Positions 13,148-57,965 of a stretch of 64,000 nt of DNA are shown in pieces. The first letter of the stretch is position 1, and each line of letters begins with the position of its first letter. The notes beneath the pieces were generated by a model that was not told the DNA's origin, searched no databases, and saw only the letters and a list, made by a program, of their open reading frames with translations. The stretch is from Natronococcus sp. A-GB1 (GTDB lineage Archaea; Halobacteriota; Halobacteria; Halobacteriales; Natrialbaceae): contig NZ_JARUKW010000005.1 of NCBI RefSeq assembly GCF_029688845.1, positions 62,001 through 126,000 of the forward strand. Direction: 5' to 3'. Both the position numbers and the translations under genes were made by a program.

Positions 13148-14107
13148 ATGACTCAGTGGACGGCGTTCGCGGCGATCACCGGCGTCGTCCTCCTCGTGTT
13201 GCTGGTTCTTTCACACCTCACGCAGTCGGCGTTCGACGAGATCGATCTCGAGGAGGGTTCCGACGACGCTGCGGACGAGCCCGATCACGCCCTCGACGCC
13301 GAAGCGTCGCCGCTCGAAAACGACCAGGAGGAGTTCCACGAAACGCCGGTCGGGGCCGAGGCCGAGGTAGACGCTTCCCGCTCGAGTCCGACGTCGGCAG
13401 CTGCCGACGACGTGTCCGCGACTGAGACGGTCCGTGATATCGAGTCGAAGGCGGCCGAGCCGTCCACTCGAGATCGCCAGGAGGGCGTCGATCCCGACTC
13501 GCTGACGACGGGGATGATGCTCGCGAACGTCGCGGTCTCGCAGGGGCTGTTCGCGCTGATTCTGCTGGGGGCGATCGTCTACACGGGCGTCCCGGCCGAC
13601 GCGCTAGGGATCGAATTTTCCAGGGGGTACCTCGAGACCGGGCTGGTCGTCGGCACCGCGGTCGGGGTCGTCCTCTACGTCGCTAACGAACTCGGCGCCG
13701 CCCTCGCGACTCGGCTGGGTTTTGACCACGACGAACAGCTCCGGGAGCTGCTGGCGCCCGACTCGGCTCGAGGATGGGCCGTGCTGCTCGGGGGCGTGTT
13801 GCCGCTGATCGCCGTCTTCGAGGAGCTGCTGTTCCGGGCGGCGCTGATCGGCGCGCTCTCGGTCGGCTTCGGCGTCTCGCCGTGGCTGCTCGCGGTGGTC
13901 TCTTCGATCGCGTTCGCGCTGGGTCACGGGATGCAGGGCGACGTCGGCGTCGTCGTCACCGGAGCGCTCGGGTTCGTGCTGGCGGCGGTCTTTATCGTGA
14001 CCGAGAGCTTTCTGGTCGTCGTCGTCGCGCACTACCTGATCAATGCCTTCGAGTTCGTCGTCCACGAGGGGATCGACCTCGAGTGGGCCCGAACCCTCGA
14101 AAGCTAA
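13148..14107 (+). CDS. CPBP-family intramembrane metalloprotease
   Basis: 319 residues. One N-terminal membrane segment is followed by an acidic linker (about 30-110) and then a multi-pass CAAX-protease/bacteriocin-processing (CPBP) domain. The signature EELLFR is at residues 225-230, with the later ALGHGMQGD (His motif) and HYLINAFEF (last motif). Its start codon directly follows the lonB stop, so the two membrane proteases are almost surely one transcript. The substrate is unknown. Confidence 0.85.
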   Translation: MTQWTAFAAITGVVLLVLLVLSHLTQSAFDEIDLEEGSDDAADEPDHALDAEASPLENDQEEFHETPVGAEAEVDASRSSPTSAAADDVSATETVRDIESKAAEPSTRDRQEGVDPDSLTTGMMLANVAVSQGLFALILLGAIVYTGVPADALGIEFSRGYLETGLVVGTAVGVVLYVANELGAALATRLGFDHDEQLRELLAPDSARGWAVLLGGVLPLIAVFEELLFRAALIGALSVGFGVSPWLLAVVSSIAFALGHGMQGDVGVVVTGALGFVLAAVFIVTESFLVVVVAHYLINAFEFVVHEGIDLEWARTLES

Positions 14108-14132
14108 GGGGGACGGGACGCTCGAGTCGCGT

Positions 14133-14477
14133 ATGAGCGATACGATCGAACTCTCGGCGTCGATGCGGCGGCTGATCGTCTACGGAATCCTGTTTTACTT
14201 CGCCCTGTTTGCGTACGCGACGCTGGCCGAGGACGCGATGGCGATGCTCGTGACGGAGTTCGCCTTCGGGGTGATCGCGGTCGGGATCGGCGCGATCCTC
14301 TACCGAGAGGCCGACGAGCCGACCTCGGTCGTCACGGGGGCGGCGGTCTGTCTGATCGCGGGCGGGGTCCTCCAGTTCGCCCACCTGGTGAGCGGACTGG
14401 TAGTCATCGATCTGGCGAGTACGCTGCTGGTCTACGCCGGCATCGGGCTCTACATCTACGCGGCCTGGAACAGCTAG
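14133..14477 (+). CDS. small four-helix membrane protein, unknown function
   Basis: 114 residues starting MSDTIELSASMRRL. Four hydrophobic segments of about 20 residues follow with short polar turns. No catalytic motif is visible. The gene begins 25 bp after the CPBP stop on the same strand, so it probably belongs to the lonB transcript. The ATG at 14133 is chosen because earlier codons overlap the CPBP gene. Confidence 0.65.
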   Translation: MSDTIELSASMRRLIVYGILFYFALFAYATLAEDAMAMLVTEFAFGVIAVGIGAILYREADEPTSVVTGAAVCLIAGGVLQFAHLVSGLVVIDLASTLLVYAGIGLYIYAAWNS

Positions 14478-14537
14478 AAACCGGAGTATCAGTAGATAGC
14501 AGCACGAATTAGTTCTACGAAACAGTTTGTGAAATCT

Positions 14538-14985
14538 GCGTTCCGTACAGTCGGACGACATATCATGTCGGGCCATCCACTCCATCTGCGGTGGCGCGCG
14601 CTGTCGGTGAGGCGCGACCGAAGGGAGCGCCTCGAAAGAGCGAACGGGGAACGGAGTGACCCGTGAGCAGACCGGCCGAACGTCAGTGAGGTCGGTCGAC
14701 GATGCTGCGCGAGGGATGAGTAAGGGAGCGACGCGACCGAACGAATCGGCTGGGGAGGGCGTGGCGATCCCCTGTGTTCGTGCGAGCAGCGTCTGCTATC
14801 GTTGCAACTACCGCGAAAGCCCCTGGCCGGCTCGAGGGCTGCGGCTCGCTGCGCGCCTCCCTCGCTCCGCTCGGTCGGTGCTTGCGTCACCTCGCTCCCC
14901 GAGCCGGCCAGCCCCTTTCAGTCCCGCCCAGCGGTGGTTGGTCGGCACTGTAGACACAACGCCGGACGTTCCATACGCTTGCGTA
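14538..14985 (+). repeat. structured non-coding repeat, copy A (long form)
   Basis: Longest of three related intergenic elements (others at 49528-49825 and 57622-57925). Shared blocks include gtggcgcgcgctgtcg, cgaacgtcagtgagg, gcgagggatgag, ggcgatcccctgtg and cccctttcagtccc, and the end is a CCGCC/GGTGG hairpin. Hairpins at 14609-14633, 14640-14668, 14670-14697 and 14715-14747 each contain tandem G.A mismatches flanked by short Watson-Crick steps. Copy A has two extra hairpins in its first half and an inserted 89-bp palindromic module at 14823-14911. Open frames through it differ between copies, so I do not call a protein. It may be a structured RNA or a palindromic mobile element. Confidence 0.75.
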
Positions 14986-15043
14986 AGTAGCGATTCAGCC
15001 GACTCGAGTTCACAACTGAGCGAAGAAGCCGCAGCACCAGCTA

Positions 15044-15514
15044 CTACAATCCCTCGAGCGAGCGCAGCTTCTGTTCGACCGGCGGGGGTGCGGCGCTGGG
15101 GCCGTCGCGGACCCGGTGGTCCGGGATCAGGATCGGCGCGGGGTTCGTGTCCAGCGCCGTCCGGACCAGGTTGAGATCCTCGCTCTCCTCGTGGTCGAGT
15201 TCCGGAGTCATCCGCGTCAGCGTGCGGACATCGACCTGATCGCCGTAGGGAATCTCCCGAACGCCCTCCAGCACCGCCCGCTGGTCGGTCGGCATCGTCA
15301 GCGCGACCTGGACGTCGTCGAACTCGACTTCCTCGAGCCCGTCGAGGTACTCGAAGATCCGCTCGAGGACGGGGTGGTCGTCCTCGGCGTCGTCCTCGGG
15401 CGTCTCGGGGAACGTGACCCGCAGCACCCGGCCGCCCGCGACGCCGACCTGCACGTATCGGTCGAGGTACGACGACTCCCGCGCGTAGATCCCGGCGTCG
15501 GTGACATCCTCCAT
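15044..15514 (-). CDS. MGMT-family protein lacking the active-site cysteine
   Basis: 156 residues whose second half matches O6-alkylguanine DNA alkyltransferases: VREIPYGDQVDVRTLTRM, then LVRTALDTNPAPILIPDHRVRDG. The invariant PCHRV active site reads PDHRV, so the alkyl-accepting cysteine is an aspartate. That places it with alkyltransferase-like proteins that bind, but cannot dealkylate, damaged bases. It is divergent from trpC with a 96-bp gap holding the TGTACA boxes. The ATG at 15514 gives the natural domain start. Confidence 0.78.
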   Translation of the reverse strand: MEDVTDAGIYARESSYLDRYVQVGVAGGRVLRVTFPETPEDDAEDDHPVLERIFEYLDGLEEVEFDDVQVALTMPTDQRAVLEGVREIPYGDQVDVRTLTRMTPELDHEESEDLNLVRTALDTNPAPILIPDHRVRDGPSAAPPPVEQKLRSLEGL

Positions 15515-49527: not shown

Positions 49528-49825
49528 GACGCGTTCCGCACAGGTGAACGACGTATCAGCTCGGTCGGACCATCCCTCCGACAGTGGCGCGCGCTGTCGA
49601 CCGACCGAACGTCAGTGAGGACGTCGACGACACTGTGCGAGGGATGAGCGAACGACCGAAGGGAGTGAGCGAGTCGGCTGGGGAGGGCGTGGCGATCCCC
49701 TGTGTTCGTGCCAGCAGGACTGCTATCGTCGTCACTACCTCGAAAGCCCCTGGCCCCTTTCAGTCCCACCCGGCAGTGGTTGGTTGAGGCTGCAGATACA
49801 ATGCCGGACGGTCCATACGCACGTT
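49528..49825 (+). repeat. structured non-coding repeat, copy B (short form)
   Basis: 298 bp, same order of blocks as copies A and C. A hairpin with loop GTCA and a GA/GA step is at 49596-49628; the 33-base hairpin at 49643-49675 has steps GAT/GTC, GA/GA, GC/GC, GA/GA, AC/GT, GA/GA, CC/GG around loop GAA. GAAAGCCCC and CCCCTTTC follow, then a CCAC/GTGG hairpin. It fills the 508-bp gap between the GYD and metG genes. It contains no convincing gene. Confidence 0.75.
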
Positions 49826-57621: not shown

Positions 57622-57925
57622 ATGTAGAGAGTGCGAATGGAAGGTCCAGCCTCGAGTCTGCAACCCCGACTATCCACCGCTGGGTGGGACTGAAAGGGGC
57701 CAGGGGCTTTCGGGCTGATGCTGACGAGTAGCAGTCCTGCTCGCACGAGCACAGGGAATCGCCACGTCCTCCCCACCCGATTCGCTCGGTCGCGTCGCTC
57801 CCTTGCTCATCCCTCGCACAGTGTCGTCGCCCGTCCTCACTGACGTTCGGACGGCCGACAGCGCGCGCCACTGCAGAAGGGATGATCAGACCGAGCTGAT
57901 ACGTCGTTCACCCGTACTAAACACG
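57622..57925 (-). repeat. structured non-coding repeat, copy C (inverted)
   Basis: 304 bp, reading on the minus strand. A hairpin with loop GTCA and stem GTCGGCCGTCC/GGACGGGCGAC (one G.G mismatch) lies at 57826-57859. The 33-base hairpin at 57779-57811 has steps GAT/ATC, GA/GA, GC/GC, AA/GA, GG/CC, GA/GA, GC/GC around loop GAC. A CCACC/GGTGG hairpin at 57674-57687 ends it. It fills the 513-bp gap between the small hydrophobic gene and the DUF2103 gene. Confidence 0.75.
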
Positions 57926-57965
57926 AGTTTCACGCAATGTACGGAGTGCAAAACTTGTATGACTG

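Follow-up and report, generated by a model that had tools for sequence, protein, structure and literature searches.

The three hairpins found between 14609 and 14697 of the window (the whole 64,000-nucleotide stretch of Natronococcus sp. A-GB1 contig NZ_JARUKW010000005.1 that was analyzed) belong to repeats that are dispersed, are inserted as modules at different positions, lie between genes, and are constrained to fold on one strand. In our reading, these repeats form a new mosaic family, resembling REP and BOX, that folds as one strand. Going one step further, we consider the chances about even that the hairpins represent a class-wide Halobacteria family of intergenic, non-coding mosaic repeats that would fold as single-stranded DNA (ssDNA) and be mobilized non-autonomously.

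The hairpins sit in the 566 bp that separate two convergent genes (14133-14477 on the + strand and 15044-15514 on the - strand), and all three were present and folded as the initial annotation had described, in the sequence as well as in RNA minimum-energy folds. Hairpin 1 (14608-14634, stem 14609-14633, + strand; GAGGCGC-GA-CC-GAA-GG-GA-GCGCCTC) has GA steps at 14616-14617 and 14625-14626 and a C-GAA-G loop, and reaches -16.6 kcal/mol as RNA (z = -4.0 vs. shuffles). Hairpin 2 (14640-14668, + strand; GC-GA-ACGGG-GA-AC-GGA-GT-GA-CCCGT-GA-GC) has two such steps (14642-43/14665-66 and 14649-50/14658-59) and a C-GGA-G loop (-12.3 kcal/mol as RNA, z = -3.4), and hairpin 3 (14670-14697, + strand; GACCGGCC-GA-AC-GTCA-GT-GA-GGTCGGTC, with one G.T pair) has GA steps at 14678-79/14688-89 and a C-GTCA-G loop (-16.5 kcal/mol as RNA, z = -4.3). 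When folded with the ViennaRNA DNA parameters, which may under-credit sheared GA pairs, hairpins 1 and 3 retained most of their fold and hairpin 2 was weak. Around the hairpins, mechanically called ORFs (14043-14585, 14489-14890, and 14656-15174) overlap the surrounding element on both strands, and automatic annotation could yield spurious proteins from them. The gene at 15047-15514 (- strand) encodes a conserved Natronococcus protein that matches an O6-methylguanine methyltransferase DNA-binding domain below the cut-off (24.7 vs. 27 bits).

The hairpins lie within copy A (14528-14978, + strand) of a dispersed composite host element of ~450 bp, delimited by BLAST comparison with 14 further copies from the same genome; many diverged copies exist in the Natronococcus genome, and 15 were aligned. 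The element consists of conserved blocks, and between them are sites that hold hairpins in some copies and none in others. On the + strand of copy A, the blocks comprise an arm block, GCGGTGGCGCGCGCTGT (14588-14604), whose positions 14595-14600 pair with 14706-14711 to form helix P1; a block, TGCGCGAGGGATGAGT (14706-14721), that contains the 3' side of P1 followed by the GAGGGATGAG motif; the block TCGGCTGGGGAGGGCGTGG (14746-14764), present at 25 places in this genome at ≤2 mismatches and in 81 of 194 genomes of the class at ≤1 mismatch; and a 3' end block running from CCCCTTTCAGTCCCGCCC to GGACGTTCC (14912-14978). A central imperfect palindrome, GAAAGCCCCTGGCCGGC...GCCGGCCAGCCCCTTTC (14815-14919, + strand), is absent from other copies or much longer in them. 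The block at 14805-14946 (CGAAAGCCCC...CCCCTTTCAGTCCC) matches plasmids of many Halobacteria genera on its own, and the central palindrome may therefore also be an independent module. The host core motif, TCGGYTGGGGAGGRYGTGG, occurs at 23 genome places at ≤1 mismatch and at 25 with two, vs. one match for a reversed-pattern control; matches to the element core among named genome records came from Natronococcus species and one Natrialbaceae archaeon. The genus-level set comprised the window's genome and eight other searched genomes of the same genus.

Two further copies of the element in the window, B (49531-49820, + strand) and C (57633-57933, - strand), are devoid of hairpins 1 and 2. Hairpin 3 forms the tip of the host helix P2, which is found in every aligned copy of the element. 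The initial annotation had hairpin 3 kept in both copies with a longer stem; this holds for copy C, where the stem is longer and once interrupted, and partly for copy B, where the tip and the GA step are retained and a 1-nt deletion breaks the stem. The proposal that a single element repeats one motif also needs some correction: hairpins 1 and 2 form an independently distributed module, whereas hairpin 3 is the host's own. At the locus orthologous to that of copy A, a hairpin-rich insert of another kind is present in genome G087 and a third kind, with T runs, in G089 and G092; the gaps are short or nearly empty in G088, G090, G091, and G094. The loci from G092 and G089 (L100 and L101), together with L086, L088, L164, and L165, show a second element type (hairpin-TTTTT-AGNGTAGA/TCCAG-TTTTTG...AAAAAGG) that resembles a bidirectional terminator.

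We refer to hairpins 1 and 2 together as the double-hairpin (DH) unit (61-62 nt; 14607-14668, + strand; 84.9 bits with model R1). An exact insert of ~64 bp bearing this unit is missing from 13 of the 15 aligned copies, B and C included; the two that carry it are copy A and the one at G000:C7:56481. By DNA similarity search, the unit was detected in 94 of 125 Natrialbaceae genomes, and a covariance model derived from 29 units, with at most 13 candidates scored per genome, detected it in 313 of 391 Halobacteria genomes (E ≤ 1e-4); in a phylum-wide sample, with at most 27 scored per genome, all matches among those listed fell in the window's own order and none outside the class. The units occupy varied sites: the 5' base of P2, the P2 tip loop, the loop of a GGGGA..TCCCC hairpin, and positions beyond the host element. 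They also form tandem arrays that repeat every 63-65 bp (G393:C1:1244923-1245309, G172:C11:93770-94081, L074, and L096). Some genomes are rich in DH units and have no host motif (e.g. G126, G127, G134, and G144), and the reverse is seen in G146, which is rich in the host motif and has no DH unit; the unit and its host are thus distributed separately. Pairs of copies from the same genome have different sub-blocks in common, which indicates mosaic evolution.

Genome G248 contains imperfect palindromes of ~540 bp with two inverted arms and, between these, DH units or other hairpins (L182 1644-2177, L206 430-970, and L208 442-975; TGGCGCGCGCTGGC ends). Their outer ends are the arm block GCGGTGGCGCGCGCTGT, and no ORF was found between the inverted arm ends in the sequences examined. 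These palindromes are probably fuller relatives of the Natronococcus element, and their two-armed form suggests that the Natronococcus copies are one-armed relatives. A phage origin of the repeats was considered and set aside, given no match to phage records.

The folded shape of one strand, here the + strand, is under well-supported constraint. In a MAFFT alignment of 29 units, 96% of the cells were paired, six pairs changed on both sides, and the covariation score exceeded that of shuffles (0.212 vs. 0.100; reached by 0 of 500), with slid structures only 28-47% paired. We take this independent alignment as the main evidence, because a larger alignment of 117 DH units was fitted to the model. 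In the latter, the six GA dinucleotides were 98-100% conserved (G in 111-117 and A in 110-117 of those present); the pair next to one inner step, by contrast, varied in concert on its two sides (C/A/G 53/35/23 with G/T/C 51/36/22), as did the pair beside the other (A/G/C 53/33/25 with T/C/G 55/35/24). Helix P2, including hairpin 3, behaved similarly; 8 of its 13 pairs changed on both sides, and 0 of 500 shuffles reached its covariation score. With GA steps nearly invariant and neighboring pairs covarying, the constraint on shape that the initial annotation suggested is supported, and the steps were conserved in related loci, so that the lack of conservation it had named as a refutation was not seen. 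Because the steps persist almost invariably throughout the class while their paired neighbors change, we conclude that the folded shape is one on which the cells, or else the repeats, depend.

Haloarchaeal intergenic DNA in general bears the signature of this GA-step hairpin grammar. Across 130 kb of unselected intergenic DNA from five genomes, GA/GA was found in 13 hairpins with a 2x2 step, compared with three for the next commonest step and with a mean of 0.3 (maximum 3) GA/GA hairpins in 20 composition-matched shuffles. The loops were tallied over all collected loci, a set enriched for these repeats: GNA accounted for 103 of 187 triloops, with C-G closure in 94 of these 103 and a free second pair, and among tetraloops ~6 of 40 were GNRA in the counts listed, the third base of GNNA showing no purine bias. 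The GNRA-like or GGA loop bias that had been anticipated thus gave way to C-GNA-G triloops, GNRA being rare. Extraordinarily stable DNA mini-hairpins have a GNA or GNNA loop on at least two G-C pairs, with a Tm of 78°C for GCGAAGC (PMC4686876). In each of hairpins 1-3, two or more pairs support a loop of the C-GNA-G or C-GNNA-G form; hairpin 1 agrees fully with the published two-G-C-pair rule, and in hairpins 2 and 3 one of the two pairs above the GA step is C-G and the other A-T. Judged by sequence, the loops appear to fit the stable DNA mini-hairpin rule better than they fit the usual RNA tetraloop. C-GAA-G triloops were also the commonest in perfect hairpins without a GA step in the intergenic DNA of the five genomes.

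To place the units relative to genes, which were called with a home-made codon-usage caller, we used 94 non-duplicate loci. A clear flanking gene pair was present at 92 (49 tandem, 27 convergent, and 16 divergent); of the other two, one falls within a called ORF and one at the end of a contig. Of the units in tandem contexts, 18 were sense and 31 antisense (p=0.085), and without a sense bias a unit need not lie on the transcript of the upstream gene. No recurrent partner gene was found next to the repeats; the neighbors that did recur, at 3-7 loci, were mostly accounted for by duplicate or orthologous loci and by protein families that are common anyway. No clear target-site duplication was seen by eye at the insert or at the palindromic elements.

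Hairpins 1 and 2 are thus a separately distributed DH unit inserted into a loop or junction of the larger host element, and we propose that the folded form may be single-stranded DNA, exposed during replication or recombination or extruded by supercoiling. The proposal of an ssDNA fold stems from the loops, which follow the rule for extraordinarily stable DNA mini-hairpins. Such compact hairpins could act as recognition structures, or as priming or template-switch structures, and the repeats might thereby be copied and shuffled; they would be tolerated between genes and most likely be non-autonomous, using an enzyme of the host or of a resident element. No mobilizing enzyme or transposition event was found among the loci and neighbors examined. 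Two observations speak against ssDNA folding: G.T/G.U pairs are tolerated, one P1 pair being G.U in 18 of 21 sequences in an RNA-like manner, and the ViennaRNA DNA parameters give hairpin 2 little stability. A bolder version strikes us as rather unlikely: that a class-wide system of ssDNA hairpins is spread and shuffled without a Y1 transposase by a protein or copying process not yet described, which would recognize a code made up of the tandem GA step and the C-GNA-G loop.

The main rival reading takes the element for a structured non-coding RNA that exists in many copies and may be mobile, with the GA hairpins as protein-bound or transcript-stabilizing domains; we regard this as possible, if tentatively so. 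Structured RNAs typically combine covarying helices with fixed single-stranded motifs, as seen here (GAGGGATGAGCGAG and TCGGCTGGGGAGGG); P1 has many G.U pairs; and minimum-energy RNA folds reproduce the hairpins exactly. Against an RNA, no Rfam match in the window exceeds its gathering score, with only two sub-threshold matches around the element; units lack a sense bias relative to neighboring genes; inspection by eye showed no promoter-like motif at the 5' end of the element; and GNA triloops outnumber GNRA tetraloops. A sub-threshold Rfam match to the DnaX frameshift element (14619-14668) was taken as chance, and a long-range RNA fold of 261 nt (z = -1.0) was not informative. On the strength of the loop rule, we lean towards DNA rather than RNA for the folded strand. 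A particular RNA reading, that the GA steps form kink-turns or k-loops recognized by L7Ae, as the initial annotation had suggested, is very improbable: tandem GA steps are what such motifs would offer, but all steps here are symmetrical 2x2 GA/GA without the defining 3-nt bulge (alignments A1 and A3), 116 of 117 units have gaps in the columns where a bulge would lie, and neither a C/D-box match nor any other Rfam family was found. The canonical k-turn is excluded by geometry.

If instead the hairpins served as transcription terminators or as 3'-UTR stabilizers after genes, their position between genes would be expected, as would the depletion of divergent relative to convergent contexts (Fisher p=0.011), and some termination sites in Haloferax do have hairpin structures upstream (PMC7237163). 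Yet no T run adjoins the copy A hairpins, the convergent excess is itself not significant (p=0.14), and the tandem contexts (18 sense vs. 31 antisense) run counter to the sense orientation that a terminator of the upstream gene should have, so that this function seems improbable. We see an equally poor prospect for hairpins of the REP/RAYT type moved by a Y1 (IS200/IS605-like) transposase. Short dispersed hairpins, their mosaic arrangement, inverted arm pairs, the lack of a visible target-site duplication at the insert, and one Y1 match in the window's genome are in keeping with that mechanism. Against it, Y1_Tnp has no match in 7 of 20 unit-rich genomes yet has one in 16 of 20 unit-free genomes, we noticed no tag of the GTAG/CGTC type, and transposase neighbors are absent. 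The unit-rich genomes with no match to PF01797 are G011, G074, G026, G025, G248, G414, and G354 (G354 and G414 being incomplete assemblies), and hence a Y1 transposase is not required. Finally, chance palindromes of GC-rich DNA would suit the composition and the unremarkable RNA folding energy of the whole element (z = -1.0), but 13 GA/GA hairpins vs. 0.3 in shuffles, the covariation, and the class-wide recurrence have already refuted this reading, to which we give practically no credence.

A comparison with known systems places the haloarchaeal repeats near, and outside, several of them. In the pneumococcal BOX element, boxA-boxB(n)-boxC, the hairpin module may be missing, occur once, or recur while the host fold stays undisturbed, and BOX is intergenic and over-represented between convergent genes, an easily comparable empty site not having been found (PMC3049150). 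The haloarchaeal element also has a variable hairpin module inside conserved flanks, but it differs in phylum and sequence; DH, moreover, is spread over a whole class, can be found away from its host element and in genomes that lack the host motif, and has invariant GA steps and GNA loops. With REP, BIME, and REPIN sequences the repeats share short, imperfect, extragenic hairpins in high copy, with mosaic and inverted pairs; they differ from REP/RAYT in having repeat-rich genomes without a Y1 transposase (7 of 20) and a folding rule of their own. The text of a survey of GTAG/CGTC repeats mentions no haloarchaea and describes unpaired GA residues in one Pseudomonas family (PMC3733652). As for MITEs, the ~540-bp elements of G248 have inverted arm ends, whereas the Natronococcus copies are one-armed. 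The double-hairpin elements of Allomyces mitochondria consist of two adjacent GC-rich hairpins acting as one insertable unit, and we know of no description of a GA-step grammar for mitochondrial hairpin elements. Repetitive hairpin-forming elements also occur in sponge mitochondrial genomes (PMC2800124). DH resembles these mitochondrial elements in its adjacent GC-rich pair and differs in genome and sequence. The d(GCGAAGC) mini-hairpin has in common with the repeats a C-GNA-G loop, two G-C-rich pairs, and a sheared G-A in the loop (PMC4686876), but it is known there as a synthetic motif, whereas here the motif is natural and sits atop tandem GA steps in genomic repeats. Kink-turns share the tandem GA pairs, but their asymmetric bulge is absent here.

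Our search, which covered the open-access literature, turned up no account of this repeat or of a class-wide counterpart of REP or BOX in haloarchaea. Short hairpin repeats of the REP and BOX kinds are known from bacteria, and the haloarchaeal family adds a class-wide case, with a sharp and testable folding rule that is held by selection or by a copying mechanism across most of the sampled Halobacteria genomes. The DNA mini-hairpin motif would thereby gain a natural setting, and the family would offer a route to the factor that recognizes it.
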